Virus record (IMG/VR): IMGVR_UViG_3300023083_000002
Span: 1 to 42,826 of that record
Source: a virus
Length of the DNA stretch: 42,826 bases
Direction: 5' to 3' (one strand)
The first letter of the stretch is position 1; the number at the start of each line of letters is the position of its first letter. This document shows, piece by piece, positions 8,166 through 21,433 of the stretch. The position numbers and the translations under genes were made by a program. The notes beneath the pieces are model-generated. The model was not told where the DNA came from. It saw only the letters and a list, made by a program, of their open reading frames with translations, and searched no databases.

Positions 8166-8281
8166 TTCTTAACTTCTTTATTTCCTTCTAGGATTCTTTT
8201 TTTGTTTTCCAAAGACTGACGTAATTTATTGGGCAAATCTTTTCTCTCCAACATCTTATTAATATCTTTCAGATTATCCAT
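8162..8281 (-). CDS. 39-residue small protein nested between portal and protease genes
   Basis: An ATG at 8281 opens 39 codons starting MDNLKDINKMLERKDLPNKL and ending in EGNKEVKK. It overlaps the last 8 nt of the portal gene and its TGA forms an ATGA overlap with the protease start. This gives unbroken coupling across what would otherwise be a 108-nt gap. The product is basic and helical. No family was recognised; an assembly factor is possible. Confidence 0.6.
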   Translation of the reverse strand: MDNLKDINKMLERKDLPNKLRQSLENKKRILEGNKEVKK

Positions 8282-9530
8282 TGTATTTTTCTTTTAAATT
8301 ATTAAAAGCATTTTTCATGTCCTGTCCTGCTTCTGTCAATTTTACCAGGTTATCAATCTCAATAGAATCAGATTCTAAAGATGTTTTCTTGTCTTCCTGC
8401 AAGGCTTCTACTTTTGAAAAGTCAGGATAGAATTCTAATTCCTCCGGAAGATAAAAAACCTTGTCTAAATCTTTAGCCTTGTCTTCGCATATTGATTTTA
8501 CCACATTTTGCCAAAGTCCTTTTTCTGCATCGTTCTGATTTGTAAAAGTACTGCTTCCTTTTCTAGGAATAAGTTCTTTGTTTACCCCATAAACCCCAGC
8601 TATCTTTATTGCATTTTCTTCTGTTTCTTCAAACGGCTGCAACTCTTGTATAGTTCCCAATGTTTTAATAAACTGAAGCGGTATTGCGGAAATTCCAATA
8701 AAGTTTTTATTTCCTGTAATCCCGTTTCTGTTATTAAGGTCGTTCAATATTTCATCCCTGCTTGCAGGATCTAAAGCGTCTTGAATTGATCCGTTGCTAG
8801 ATGAAGGTGCTTTGCTCAATATACCCCCGTTGCCGTTCTTGGCGTAAACGTTAAATCTTGCCTGATAAACAGCAAGAATATTATTAATGTTTCTGCTTAC
8901 TCTTGACAATGGAGAAAGTCCGCAGCCGTTTTCATCTAAGCCTAGAACGGTTCTGTGCAGAATGTATCTTGGCTCAATATCATGCTTTATTAAAAAGAAC
9001 GTCTTGTAATATTTTATAAAATCCTTTTTATCTTTCATCAAGAAAGGATTAGAAATCTCTTTTAAAAGAATAGGCTTTGTAACGTTTGGCTTTAATACCC
9101 AAATATTGCTGATGTTGTCAATAGTCGGGTTTTTAATGCTGTCAGGCGTTTTAGTATATATGTAGCTATTTCCGTCTGAAAGTTCGCTAAATACCGACTG
9201 GTAAACAATATCGCTCATCCTTGATAAAGGATTAGGATTATCAACCAATCTCTTTAGATTTCCTTGTGGCTCGTAATCTTCCTGCGTTTTTTTGTTTCTT
9301 ATCTTATATTCGATTGAAGCGGCACGATCTGCAATTGCATCAATAGGAATAAATATTTCAGCTATGGTGCAGGCTAATTCGTAAGCTTTTGAATTTTCAT
9401 ACTTCGGTATCTCTCCATTTAATGAATTTACGTACTGGTTGAAATACTGCATCCATTGCCCTGAATTGTCCTGTTCGGCAAATCCGGTTACTTGCGTCTT
9501 TTTTGATTTAGCAAAAGGATTCCAATTCAT
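8274..9530 (-). CDS. Portal protein (HK97 family)
   Basis: A 418-residue protein. Typical portal segments are the N-terminal NPFAKSKK, the clip/stem approach YELACTIAEIFIPIDAIADR, LVDNPNPLSRMSDIVYQSVF, NGNSYIY-like SDGNSYIYTKTP, and the C-terminal helical stretch GVYGVNKELIPRKGSSTFTN followed by NDAEKGLWQNVVKSICED. It forms the dodecameric ring through which DNA is packaged and to which the connectors bind. The gene has its own leader: its ATG follows a promoter and a pseudoknot-like terminator structure (9548-9664), so its expression may be uncoupled from that of the terminase. Confidence 0.92.
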   Translation of the reverse strand: MNWNPFAKSKKTQVTGFAEQDNSGQWMQYFNQYVNSLNGEIPKYENSKAYELACTIAEIFIPIDAIADRAASIEYKIRNKKTQEDYEPQGNLKRLVDNPNPLSRMSDIVYQSVFSELSDGNSYIYTKTPDSIKNPTIDNISNIWVLKPNVTKPILLKEISNPFLMKDKKDFIKYYKTFFLIKHDIEPRYILHRTVLGLDENGCGLSPLSRVSRNINNILAVYQARFNVYAKNGNGGILSKAPSSSNGSIQDALDPASRDEILNDLNNRNGITGNKNFIGISAIPLQFIKTLGTIQELQPFEETEENAIKIAGVYGVNKELIPRKGSSTFTNQNDAEKGLWQNVVKSICEDKAKDLDKVFYLPEELEFYPDFSKVEALQEDKKTSLESDSIEIDNLVKLTEAGQDMKNAFNNLKEKYNG

Positions 9531-9543
9531 TTAGATTAAACGT

Positions 9544-9579
9544 AAAAAATCCCTGCCTATGTTTCCATAAGTAGGGATT
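9544..9579 (-). terminator. Hairpin with U-tract just before the portal start
   Basis: The stem AATCCCTACTTATG / CATAGGCAGGGATT (14 positions, one mismatch and one wobble, 4-nt GAAA loop) is followed by TTTTTT on the minus strand. It would stop transcripts from 9631-9664 unless relieved, giving attenuation of the portal operon. It is part of leader copy E. Confidence 0.65.
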
Positions 9580-9622
9580 AAGTTATAATTTCTGTTAAAG
9601 GTTCTACGCATCTTCACATAGG
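9548..9622 (-). ncRNA. Pseudoknot-type leader RNA, copy E (upstream of portal)
   Basis: In minus-strand RNA: S1 CCUAUGU (9622-9616), S2 AAUCCCU (9579-9573), S1' ACAUAGG (9562-9556), S2' AGGGAUU (9554-9548), then UUUU. The stems interleave as in an H-type pseudoknot. The same bases can instead form one long hairpin (AATCCCTAC..TATG with CATAGGCAGGGATT) that looks like a classic terminator, so S1 and the extended terminator stem compete for CATAGG. The S1 strand begins 9 nt after a promoter -7 box and the portal ATG lies 18 nt downstream of S2'. One of five copies of this architecture in the genome. Confidence 0.6.
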
Positions 9623-9630
9623 ATATACTG

Positions 9631-9664
9631 CAAATATATGTAAAATAAGTTTATAAAAAACAAA
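9631..9664 (-). promoter_or_regulatory. Bacteroidota-type promoter for the portal leader
   Basis: On the minus strand TTTG (9664-9661), a 22-nt spacer, then TATATTTG (9638-9631), matching the -33 / -7 pattern TTTG ... TAnnTTTG. The predicted start is near 9623, at the first bases of the S1 stem of leader copy E. It has the same -7 box and the same 22-nt spacing as the promoter at 9837-9870. Confidence 0.6.
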
Positions 9665-9680
9665 TATTATTTAAAACTAA

Positions 9681-9707
9681 AATACCGACTATATTATAGT
9701 CGGTATT
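9681..9707 (-). terminator. Strong, probably bidirectional terminator
   Basis: AATACCGACTATA (9681-9693) pairs with TATAGTCGGTATT (9695-9707): a 13-bp perfect inverted repeat with almost no spacer, flanked by T-rich DNA on both sides. It ends the short unit that starts at the 9837-9870 promoter and insulates the portal promoter from the terminase transcript. Confidence 0.8.
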
Positions 9708-9711
9708 TTTA

Positions 9712-9792
9712 TTATACATGCCCTCTTGTACTAATATGAAACCAATTCATACTTTCCTTTAAAACGAGGGGAACGGACTTATAATTTTTCAT
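9712..9792 (-). CDS. Possible 26-residue peptide in a self-contained transcription unit
   Basis: ATG at 9792 opens 26 codons starting MKNYKSVPLVLKES and ending STRGHV, with the TAA 4 nt before the terminator stem. A promoter lies 45 nt upstream. An internal in-frame ATG has a good AAAGGA-type ribosome site, unusual for this genome. The RNA also has twin hairpins sharing GAATTGGTTTC, so it may be a non-coding RNA. No similarity was recognised. Confidence 0.3.
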   Translation of the reverse strand: MKNYKSVPLVLKESMNWFHISTRGHV

Positions 9793-9836
9793 TCAAATAG
9801 AAACCAATTCTAAATGCCCTACTAAAAATGCCCAAA

Positions 9837-9870
9837 CAAATATATGTAAATTTAATTTAGCTTTTACAAA
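9837..9870 (-). promoter_or_regulatory. Bacteroidota-type promoter of the cryptic unit
   Basis: TTTG (9870-9867), a 22-nt spacer and TATATTTG (9844-9837) on the minus strand. It lies just after the stop of the 73-residue gene and directs transcription into the 9712-9792 unit. Spacer length and -7 box are the same as in the promoter at 9631-9664. Confidence 0.6.
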
Positions 9871-9874
9871 ATTT

Positions 9875-10096
9875 TTATTTTATTGTGTGCTGTAGTGATG
9901 ATACATCGTTATTTAAAGCATCGGTTATTGTTTTCCAATCTTTCATTATTTCTTCCACACTTCCGTTCCAATAAATATAACCGCCATAGAACGAAAAACA
10001 TATTGACTGTTTTTCGGAAGGATTAATTTGAATAGATTGACAATGATCCAAATTAATTATTTGGTTGTTTTCGTTTACACTTTGAATAAATTTCAT
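9875..10096 (-). CDS. Small hypothetical protein between TerL and portal
   Basis: A 73-residue soluble protein, MKFIQSVNENNQIINLDHC..., with beta-strand-like segments (SICFSFYGGYIYWNG) and a helical C-terminus (EEIMKDWKTITDALNN). The fold could be a small alpha/beta domain. It starts about 90 nt after the TerL stop, so it may be the last gene of the terminase transcript. No family was recognised. Confidence 0.6.
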   Translation of the reverse strand: MKFIQSVNENNQIINLDHCQSIQINPSEKQSICFSFYGGYIYWNGSVEEIMKDWKTITDALNNDVSSLQHTIK

Positions 10097-10182
10097 AATT
10101 ATTATTTTTTAATTGTTTGAATTTTGCAATAAACTATCGCTTATTACCGTGTTTATAATTTAATGCTGTTTGAATATTATAA

Positions 10183-17925: not shown

Positions 17926-17947
17926 AACCTAGCTGTTACGCTAGGTT
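17926..17947 (-). terminator. Terminator of the methyltransferase operon
   Basis: AACCTAGC (17947-17940 on the minus strand) pairs with GCTAGGTT (17933-17926) around a 6-nt loop and is followed by TTTTT. The stop codon of the C5-methyltransferase gene lies inside the stem. Confidence 0.85.
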
Positions 17948-18587
17948 AGGGTGTTTTAAATATTTGATTAATAACGTGAAGTCCTAATTTTGGATGAACA
18001 CAATTTCTCAATATCTGAACTGGGCAATGATTTTTTTCATAATATATATTTTCTTCGTAATAAATACCAAGCCAATCCATCATAGTTTTTTTTTGTCCAA
18101 CAGTTGCCAAATTCATCATTCCTTTTGGAGATTTAGGAACTTCCTGCATTTGATCTATGTCAAAATTACTCCAAAATAAATGCCTGCCTATTTTTACGGG
18201 ATTACCGTACGGCTGATAATAAGGGACTACATTTTCAACCACCCATTTTTTATCTTTGCAATACTGTGTAAGAAATATTATTTCTTCAAATAAAGCCCCG
18301 TAAACATATCTTATCATGTTGTGCCTGGTTGCTAAATTCATTTTTGAATGCTTTTGACATGGCCTAGATGTCCAAATAATATCAAAGTCTTTGTAATTTT
18401 CCAACAAAAATTGATGTGCATCACAAACAATAACTTTTTGATTTGGTTTTCTTTTTTGAAGCACATTCGCTATTTTTGGATCTAATTCAATATTGGTAAT
18501 ATCGAATTTATCTTCGTCCAATAATTCTATATTGCCGCCTAATCCGGCATATAAATTCAACAATTTTATTTTTTTACCTAATTCCAT
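17946..18587 (-). CDS. DNA cytosine-5 methyltransferase
   Basis: A 213-residue compact C5-methyltransferase. Motif I is LNLYAGLGGN (residues 10-19, SAM binding), the acidic IELDP is at 33-37, motif IV is SRPCQKHS with the catalytic Cys77, and motif VI is VENV near 117-120. It is shorter than typical 300-400-residue enzymes because the target-recognition region is minimal. It would methylate phage (or host) DNA at C5 of cytosine, probably for protection against restriction. No restriction endonuclease is encoded next to it, so it acts as a solitary enzyme. It shares an operon with a second methyltransferase. Confidence 0.85.
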   Translation of the reverse strand: MELGKKIKLLNLYAGLGGNIELLDEDKFDITNIELDPKIANVLQKRKPNQKVIVCDAHQFLLENYKDFDIIWTSRPCQKHSKMNLATRHNMIRYVYGALFEEIIFLTQYCKDKKWVVENVVPYYQPYGNPVKIGRHLFWSNFDIDQMQEVPKSPKGMMNLATVGQKKTMMDWLGIYYEENIYYEKNHCPVQILRNCVHPKLGLHVINQIFKTP

Positions 18588-18732
18588 AATTAAACCAATT
18601 TATTATTTTTTCCAATTCTTTAATCTCAATATCGTATTTGTCTGTCTTCTCTACTGAACTCTTTACTTTTAAATTGTTTAGCTTGGTTTGGGTTTCGGAT
18701 ATTGAATCAGAAGAGTTTCGTTTGGCCGACAT
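18574..18732 (-). CDS. 52-residue small protein between the two methyltransferases
   Basis: ATG 18732 opens 52 codons: MSAKRNSSDSISETQTKLNN, a charged helical middle, and EIKELEKIINWFNYGIR. It overlaps the upstream methyltransferase end by 26 nt and the C5-methyltransferase start by 14 nt, filling the only gap in the operon. It is basic at the N-terminus and coiled-coil-like. The function is unknown; a partner of the methyltransferases is conceivable. Confidence 0.45.
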   Translation of the reverse strand: MSAKRNSSDSISETQTKLNNLKVKSSVEKTDKYDIEIKELEKIINWFNYGIR

Positions 18733-19333
18733 GGTTTTTTATTCTTTTAATTGCTGAATCGTAGTATTCTTTGTCTAATTCGCAAGCGGTTAATTCAAAT
18801 CCGTAATCATGGCAAGCGATTGCGATGCTTCCTGAACCTAAATGAGTGTCTAAAATTTTAAATCCTTCTTTTGCATATTTCTCTAAAAGCCATCGATATA
18901 ATTTTTCAGGCTTTTGTGTGGGATGTATTCTGTCTTTATCTTGAGGATGATGCTCAAACACTTTAGAAACTGTACTTAATTCATTATTTATCCACGCATA
19001 TTCAGCCATTGACATTGTAAAAACATCGGAAATTGTTTTCTTTTTATATATTACAAAGCCTTTATTATTAGGTAGCATTTCATTAAAATTATTTGCTCCC
19101 CAAATTATTTGATTTTTAGATATTCGGAATAACTCATCAAAAAAAACTTTTTTAGGCTTATCCCCAAAATTATTCATAGTACCATTGTTTCTCATATCTT
19201 TAGTTGGCTGGTTTTCTATCATATCTCTATAAGGCGGGTCAACAATTGCTAAATCGAAATAATTATCAGGATAACGAGCCATTAAGACCATATTACACTC
19301 GTTAGTAATATTAATTTTATCTGTTATTTGCAT
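18707..19333 (-). CDS. DNA N6-adenine / N4-cytosine methyltransferase (beta class)
   Basis: A 208-residue protein of the N6_N4_Mtase family. Motif IV DPPY is at residues 32-35, followed by the YRDMI region. A central target-recognition part carries KNQIIWGANNFNEMLPNNK and HPTQKPEKLYRWLLEKY, and motif I LDTHLGSGS comes near the C-terminus (161-169). Catalytic motif before the SAM-binding motif defines the beta class. The HPTQKP segment is a strong family mark. It would modify phage DNA against host restriction. The gene overlaps its upstream neighbour by 10 nt. Confidence 0.9.
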   Translation of the reverse strand: MQITDKINITNECNMVLMARYPDNYFDLAIVDPPYRDMIENQPTKDMRNNGTMNNFGDKPKKVFFDELFRISKNQIIWGANNFNEMLPNNKGFVIYKKKTISDVFTMSMAEYAWINNELSTVSKVFEHHPQDKDRIHPTQKPEKLYRWLLEKYAKEGFKILDTHLGSGSIAIACHDYGFELTACELDKEYYDSAIKRIKNHVGQTKLF

Positions 19334-20434: not shown

Positions 20435-21433
20435 TTATACATTTTCAAAACACTCGCAAGGGAATAGGTCTTGCGTATGCTGTGTTAGATATTTTTTTGC
20501 TGATTTCCAGAACGTACTGCTTGGTATATGTTCGCTTGCAGGAATTCCTATTTCTTTCATTTTTTTAAACTTAGGTTCAATATCTTTTAGAAACTCCTTT
20601 CCGAAAGAATATCCAATAATTTCTTCTGCTTCTTTACCTAGTTCAAAAATATCGTAATGAAAGCAATAGATAACATACCAATGTTGCTGTCCAGCTTTTA
20701 AGCAACCTTTGCAATTTGCATGTTTAAAAAGTTTATATTGATTTGGTCTTTTTATTCCTATTTCTTCAGTATCAAAAATAGTACGTAAATTTCCTTTATA
20801 TTCTTCTAGTTTAATTAATTCGTGCTTTATAGAATCTTGTATAAATTGATTATGATTCATTTTAAAATCAAAAATATTTATTTTTGAATTATTTACCTTA
20901 TTGAAGGTTTTTAATAAAGACGAAATAAGATAATCATTGTAGGCATTTATCTGTTCTTCAAGCCAAATTGCTAAAGGGAAGTCCGACACGTACCCATCTT
21001 TTTCTAATATTGATTTCCTTCTCTCAACCCTATTAAATTCATTTTCGTCAAAACCATAATAAATTACATATTCAAAATTTTTATCAAGGTTTTTTAAAAA
21101 ATTATAAAAAGGTTCGGTTTTGAGTACGAAAGTGCATAAAATTTGTCTTCCGTGTGGATTCACAAAACTTCCTTTTTCAATACAAACTTCAAACTGATTT
21201 TTTATAAGTTCTACTACTGATTGATTGCCTTCGTTGGCATAAGTAATCGGGATTCCTAGGTAGTCAGAAACTTCTTTTTTAAATCTTTTTATATCTTCAT
21301 CTTCAAAATGAGGATGTATATCGTGATTTAACAGAATTACATTTTCCTTTCCGTATTTTCTTTCTGCCTCAATCGCAACTATTGCCGAAGCGTGTCCGCC
21401 AGAAAAACAAATAATATGTTTTTTACTTTTCAT
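20435..21433 (-). CDS. PAPS reductase-like (PP-loop ATP pyrophosphatase family) protein
   Basis: A 332-residue protein with a PP-loop variant SGGHAS at residues 11-16 (usual SGGxDS), followed by ENVILLNHDIHPHFEDEDIK. A C-terminal Cys pair lies in NCKGCLKAGQQHWYVIYC, which could bind an iron-sulfur cluster or zinc. The family includes PAPS reductases, DndC-type sulfur-insertion proteins and tRNA thiolation enzymes, and phages carry it often without a proven role. The DNA modification genes downstream make a nucleic-acid-modification role possible, but no dnd partner genes are present. Confidence 0.75.
   Translation of the reverse strand: MKSKKHIICFSGGHASAIVAIEAERKYGKENVILLNHDIHPHFEDEDIKRFKKEVSDYLGIPITYANEGNQSVVELIKNQFEVCIEKGSFVNPHGRQILCTFVLKTEPFYNFLKNLDKNFEYVIYYGFDENEFNRVERRKSILEKDGYVSDFPLAIWLEEQINAYNDYLISSLLKTFNKVNNSKINIFDFKMNHNQFIQDSIKHELIKLEEYKGNLRTIFDTEEIGIKRPNQYKLFKHANCKGCLKAGQQHWYVIYCFHYDIFELGKEAEEIIGYSFGKEFLKDIEPKFKKMKEIGIPASEHIPSSTFWKSAKKYLTQHTQDLFPCECFENV

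Follow-up and report, generated by a model that had tools for sequence, protein, structure and literature searches.

We describe here a short control cassette placed directly before the portal gene of a phage, which we read, with a probability of about 0.5, as a translation-coupled attenuator of a Bacteroidetes phage head operon, similar to that of pyrBI and with a small RNA hairpin as a possible control point. The window, that is, the whole stretch of DNA that was analysed, comprised 42,826 nucleotides (record IMGVR_UViG_3300023083_000002). In it, the cassette spans 9664-9531, just downstream of a small unit (unit 1, 9870-9679) that a preliminary description had proposed as a self-contained transcription unit. 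That description had overlooked a second promoter (9664-9631, with the same spacing) and a second terminator (9579-9544, before the portal ATG), as well as the fact that unit 1 interrupts a conserved control region made up of promoter, covarying hairpin, leader ORF and terminator. The features of the cassette are the following:

9631-9664, minus strand: promoter P2, TTTG-N22-TATATTTG, with the spacing of the upstream promoter P1 and kept before the portal gene in relatives.
9604-9621, minus strand: leader hairpin, CUAUG-[UGAAGAUG]-CGUAG.
9531-9611, minus strand: leader ORF of 26 aa, MRRTFNRNYNLIPTYGNIGRDFLRLI, whose TAA stop abuts the portal ATG and which has the terminator inside.
9544-9579, minus strand: terminator T2, with the stem AAUCCCU..AGGGAUU and a T6 run, inside the leader ORF.
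8274-9530, minus strand: portal gene, the first of the head operon (phrog_2662, E 2.8e-13).

The relatives of the window were obtained via their terminase and portal proteins. Directly before the portal gene they displayed the same order of promoter, hairpin, leader ORF, terminator and start codon, and this arrangement was kept from 99% down to 55% portal identity; in the window, T2 lies 13 nt from the portal ATG. A descriptor combining promoter, hairpin and terminator gave 32 distinct copies in 2.77 Mb of strands and none in the reversed decoy, in a set built by homology and pattern searches that is not a census. All the copies with enough contig left were located 14-30 nt before a gene, and the genes behind them encoded portals that belong to several divergent families, the head maturation protease of L230 and phage proteins of unknown function. 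In 199 Flavobacteriaceae genomes there was one unconvincing match to the cassette, and neither prophage nor bacterial homologues of the portal were found among the bacterial genome contigs searched. Several relatives lacked the cassette and had the promoter immediately before the portal gene; since its presence and absence on the portal tree involve at least four gains or losses, the cassette is an optional module. A wider reading, held only tentatively, is that it represents a distinct class of phage switch which has spread in Bacteroidetes phages before different head-operon genes. In such a switch a factor reading the UGAAG/GUGA loop would decide on leader translation, and hence on transcription of the structural genes, replacing Q or sigma-factor switches.

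Several other traits of these genomes were noted in passing. The cassette of L066 (6789 onwards) is very similar to that of the window, even though the portal of L066 has diverged so far that a tblastn search with the window portal misses it, which hints at cassette exchange between phages. In the leader before the portal of L083/L060 the hairpin region is replaced by a much longer stretch, and the leader ORF and terminator that follow are almost the same as those of L082/L017. Additionally, the terminase halves (ATPase and nuclease) are swapped between phages at about residue 242: of the two sets L053, L056, L062 and L049, L050, L060, one matches the window terminase only over residues 4-242 and the other only over 241-433, and all the swapped-half terminases are unbroken ORFs of 428-499 codons. 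The early region of the window (20435-21433 and 17946-19333) holds a phosphoadenosine phosphosulfate reductase-like gene and two DNA methyltransferase-like genes.

The leader hairpin consisted of a loop of UGAAGNUG or GUGAN on stems differing in sequence. In 13 class-I sequences all five base pairs had double-sided changes, and the covariation score was 0.805, as compared with 0.275 ± 0.052 in shuffles and 0.29 or less in slid controls; for L182, L198, L211, L216 and L218 the search pattern fixed the loop and two inner pairs and left the outer pairs free. The fold of the window leader had a z of −3.34. An invariant UGAAG loop on a freely covarying stem, together with the exchange of the two loop classes in related cassettes, would also be accounted for by factor-dependent antitermination, which is the main rival explanation. 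According to it, the hairpin would be the site where RNA polymerase is modified to read past the terminator, the head operon being expressed late as a result. The modifying agent could be a phage or host protein, in the manner of lambda N at boxB or of a Q-like factor at the promoter, or the RNA itself, as in HK022 put. The succession of promoter, leader and terminator before structural genes, as in lambda pR'-tR', is found here as well, the late use of the promoter being a presumption. The number of cassettes per phage agrees with this too, there being one convincing copy in the window and mostly one in whole relatives; L216 has two, and the other whole relatives searched have at most one convincing copy each. 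However, antitermination gives no account of a leader frame that crosses the terminator without a stop and ends where the following gene begins, and the terminator evidence covers this single site of the operon. No antiterminator-like gene was recognised among the 30 window proteins scanned with PHROGs; Q proteins are diverse, and one may be encoded among the small genes outside this set. We regard antitermination as possible, if doubtful.

The open frame is among the observations that favour the attenuator. A leader ORF of 23-28 codons running through the terminator, with its stop at −9 to +3 of the portal start, was found in 14 of the 16 usable lineages, the chance of such an ORF in shuffles being 1-6% for each lineage, and L081 has one of this kind by inspection. 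As in attenuators of the pyrBI type, an intrinsic terminator is placed inside the leader ORF both in the window (9611-9531, T2) and in nearly all the portal relatives. Several observations count against the attenuator: L112 has no leader ORF, that of L106 has 27 codons and ends at +7, overlapping the portal gene by 7 nt, the start codons vary (ATG, GTG, TTG), the frame spanning the terminator in L230 begins only at a TTG near the promoter, and there are the relatives without cassette. Regarding the product of the frame, eight close sequences that form a clade, with few substitutions between any two of them, gave a dN/dS of about 1 or higher for the leader ORF, while the terminator stem retained its pairing, with some compensatory changes in one clade. 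It is very improbable that the leader ORF, the 26-codon ORF of unit 1, or both, are genes for functional small proteins. Such genes would account for the open leader frame of nearly all cassettes and for a motif common to some clades (e.g., SSNRVxAFLL), but the shared residues coincide with the terminator arms, the dN/dS values do not fit this reading, and the ORF of unit 1 is within chance and has no homologues. Frame and stem are thus preserved and the leader peptide is free to vary, and, as the frame remains open while its amino acids drift, leader translation rather than the peptide seems to matter.

The attenuator would operate as follows. RNA polymerase would start at the Bacteroidetes-type promoter, make a short leader with the small hairpin and meet the intrinsic terminator inside the leader ORF, which has about 26 codons and a stop adjoining the start codon of the portal gene. 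With the leader being translated close behind RNA polymerase, the ribosome would block folding of the terminator and transcription would proceed into the head genes; the same ribosome could then reinitiate on the portal. If the leader were left untranslated, an RNA of about 90 nt would be released. The hairpin, which often holds or precedes the leader start codon, may gate leader translation by binding some factor. This scheme is built on sequence comparison (the parts, their conservation, the stem covariation, the open frame without amino-acid conservation and the repeated gain or loss of the cassette), from which we infer both the coupling mechanism and the gating by the hairpin. Its single steps have precedents, given that ribosomes prevent intrinsic terminator hairpins and pyrL coupling controls pyrBI (PMC5021804), that ribosomes repress a terminator placed immediately behind a gene (PMC4824070) and that reinitiation occurs after leader ORFs (PMC4833913). 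Nevertheless, termination is also reported to be efficient at terminators located less than 100 bp into a coding region (PMC4824070), and ribosome coverage alone may therefore not suffice. In addition, the invariant hairpin loop suggests a recognition partner, which a pure pyrBI scheme does not need.

In the attenuator the terminator would also shield the head genes from transcription of the upstream early genes. That this is its only task, the terminators stopping upstream transcription and the short RNAs being by-products of a promoter firing through a leaky terminator, is unlikely. The upstream genes do all point the same way into the head genes, and insulation by terminators is known from mobile elements such as Tn916 (PMC11658703). 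Yet the terminator lies downstream of the promoter and not upstream of it, and the hairpin covariation and the open leader frame would be left without a role.

Upstream of this cassette, the preliminary description was right in recognising a complete unit on the minus strand, with promoter (9870-9837), transcribed stretch and terminator all present. The features of this region are the following:

9837-9870, minus strand: promoter P1, TTTG-N22-TATATTTG, of Bacteroidetes type.
9679-9836, minus strand: inserted unit 1, predicted RNA of ~150 nt from P1 to terminator T1.
9798-9812, minus strand: hairpin 1 of unit 1, UAGAA-UUGGU-UUCUA.
9733-9753, minus strand: hairpin 2 of unit 1, with the same GAA-UUGGU-UUC top as hairpin 1 on another stem, inside CCCUC/GAGGG.
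9712-9792, minus strand: 26-codon ORF of unit 1, MKNYKSVPLVLKESMNWFHISTRGHV, with AAAGGA internal.
9709-9679, minus strand: terminator T1, AAAATACCGACTATAATATAGTCGGTATTTT, 14 pairs and a 3-nt loop, a near-perfect palindrome.
9875-10096, minus strand: 73-aa ORF in the variable gap between terminase and promoter, without family match.

The perfect terminator stem was present, with 14 bp instead of the 13 bp first given, and the transcribed region, put at ~130 nt, extends to about 150 nt when taken to the terminator end. The two hairpins with a common core claimed for the unit were confirmed: the 11-nt core GAATTGGTTTC occurs at 9810-9800 and 9748-9738 and has no further copy in the window. Twin GAAUUGGUUUC hairpins sharing such a core appeared in none of 3,000 dinucleotide shuffles, and any 11-nt repeat in 0.4% of 3,000. 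Likewise, the three GGGCAT repeats (9833, 9819 and 9723) are there and make up three of the five minus-strand copies of the window, some 6-mer being present three times in 3.5% of dinucleotide shuffles, and the CCCTC/GAGGG pairing is part of the minimum free energy (MFE) fold. Without its terminator, the unit 1 RNA folded no better than shuffles (z = +0.31). The idea that GGGCAU could be antisense to AUGCCC starts was discarded, as none of the 40 phage genes checked begins with ATGCCC. Apart from this, ATGAATTGG is common to unit 1 and the portal start, these being its only two copies in the window; mimicry of the portal start by unit 1 is a possible, post hoc explanation.

As regards the 26-codon ORF (9792-9712), it is present with AAAGGA inside, but its reading as a tiny protein gene is weak, ATG ORFs of at least 26 codons being found in 3.9% of the dinucleotide shuffles of unit 1, and it is probably not a gene. 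The proposal that AAAGGA is a ribosome site is not credible either. None of the 40 window genes checked carries a Shine-Dalgarno-like word upstream, and A is enriched near −3/−4 and from −11 to −13, which is the Bacteroidetes pattern; a Shine-Dalgarno role is consequently very unlikely. Bacteroidetes are known to lack these sequences (PMC6847099).

A self-contained unit from promoter to terminator with non-random twin hairpins makes a small RNA plausible, and the role of unit 1 would most likely be that of a small accessory RNA. A conserved small RNA was rejected. The twin core was found in only one other contig (L004, near-identical, in which a G.U pair of hairpin 2 is replaced by A-U) among 2.9 million viral contigs, and unit 1 had no match among phage or plasmid records. 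No Rfam family matched in the window at the gathering score, the best match below threshold being a terminator-like stretch (E 0.041, 28 of the 48 bits needed), and there is the unexceptional fold without terminator. The preliminary description had proposed a search of related phages for the unit; a single further contig either speaks against conservation or is too little to judge it by. In short, what had been observed in unit 1 holds, and its interpretation is partly supported.

The relatives L005 and L006, whose portals are 97-99% identical, lack unit 1 and keep the downstream part, joined directly to the upstream promoter; their single promoter matches P1 on the upstream side and is followed by the unit of P2. 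P1 and P2 form a 23-nt direct repeat. From this comparison, unit 1 appears to be a recent 206-bp insertion between two copies of the promoter repeat, a deletion in L005/L006 being a less simple alternative that the portal tree does not separate from insertion. The insertion would have brought in another promoter together with a terminated RNA of its own, about 150 nt long. The neighbouring gap between terminase and promoter (window 9871-10182) is itself a hot spot, always behind the same start context. The window has the 73-aa ORF there, whereas L004 has two different ORFs, L005 has a remnant and L006 has a broken ORF similar to that of 73 aa. L007 and L050 carry an insert in the terminase-portal gap, namely an ORF on the opposite strand that apparently includes a signal peptide.

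A more specific role for unit 1, that of an RNA anti-CRISPR imitating the 5' part of Flavobacteriaceae type II-C repeats and occupying the tracrRNA of Cas9, is quite unlikely. A pattern search of bacterial genomes with the twin core returned type II-C-like CRISPR arrays, and unit 1 was compared with the repeats of 31 Flavobacteriaceae loci, 30 of them found via Cas9 independently of the core and one via pattern search. Copy 2 matches a type II-C repeat, from Flavobacteriaceae that may not be the host, at 20 of 24 positions over the tracrRNA-pairing part. Scores of at least 16 were reached by 7 of 1,188 shuffles and by 18 of the 1,703 phage windows compared (p about 0.01). In its pairing with tracr anti-repeats the transcribed strand, and not the other one, surpassed 99.7% of 2,495 phage windows. 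As the idea arose from a search with the 11-nt core itself, the tests lack independence. Repeat mimics transcribed from a promoter of their own are known from phages and provide a precedent (PMC10651486). However, the match of copy 2 extends over half a repeat, that of copy 1 is confined to the core and its surroundings, both copies are inside self-complementary hairpins, and the pairing (−12 to −23 kcal/mol) is well below that of authentic repeats (−26 to −38 kcal/mol). Moreover, a pattern search of 397 Flavobacteriaceae gave 17 matches, not clearly above the reversed control, and the coincidence of ATGAATTGG with the portal start calls for caution, the CRISPR resemblance resting on overlapping letters. 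Two related ideas were rejected: a CRISPR mini-array, as the spacing is 62 nt versus 75-79 and the 3' half of the repeat is missing, and the plus strand as tracrRNA decoy, its anti-repeat pairing being no better than background. As a separate observation, in six Flavobacteriaceae type II-C loci (L286, L289, L295, L297, L300 and L302) the best tracr anti-repeat candidates were found a few bases behind TATATTTG or a similar box.

The timing of late genes in Bacteroidetes phages seems to be little described, and our literature search for Flavobacterium phage transcription studies found none. A switch of ~100 nt that can be recognised from sequence before several unrelated head operons would make this timing directly testable and could serve as a marker for late promoters in uncultivated phages. 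If the attenuator reading is true, it would provide a case of translation-coupled attenuation from a phylum whose translation starts do not use Shine-Dalgarno sequences. Unit 1, in turn, is of interest as a candidate phage small RNA, which might act as a CRISPR decoy.

With respect to known systems, phage morons have their own promoter and terminator and are inserted between phage genes. Unit 1 resembles them as a lineage-specific insert that is flanked by promoters and equipped with a terminator, but it has no credible protein-coding gene. Like RNA anti-CRISPRs (Racr, solitary repeat units; PMC10651486), it would yield a short RNA from a promoter of its own, similar to part of a CRISPR repeat. 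It differs from them in the partial match (20/24 in one copy, only the core in the other) and the strong self-hairpins, and a term search of that paper gave no type II-C example.

As for the cassette, the HK022 put RNA and lambda nut/boxB resemble it in that a small hairpin with a conserved loop lies close to the 5' end of the transcript, upstream of terminators (PMC9378689). In contrast, the cassette hairpin has another sequence, is single and small, has its terminator in the same cassette and gives no Rfam match. The lambda pR'-6S RNA-tR' region with Q also combines promoter and terminator and yields a short terminated leader before structural genes (PMC6606751, PMC7171158). There, however, the terminator is far upstream, while that of the cassette is 12-20 nt from the first gene; no Q homologue was recognised among the window proteins scanned, and the conserved element is an RNA hairpin with an open leader frame. 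In E. coli pyrBI, as in the cassette, an intrinsic terminator is enclosed by the leader ORF (pyrL), whose end immediately precedes the structural gene, and translation coupling decides readthrough (PMC5021804), which for the cassette we infer from its sequence. The cassette is distinguished from pyrBI by its location in the head operons of Bacteroidetes phages and by its extra invariant 5' hairpin.
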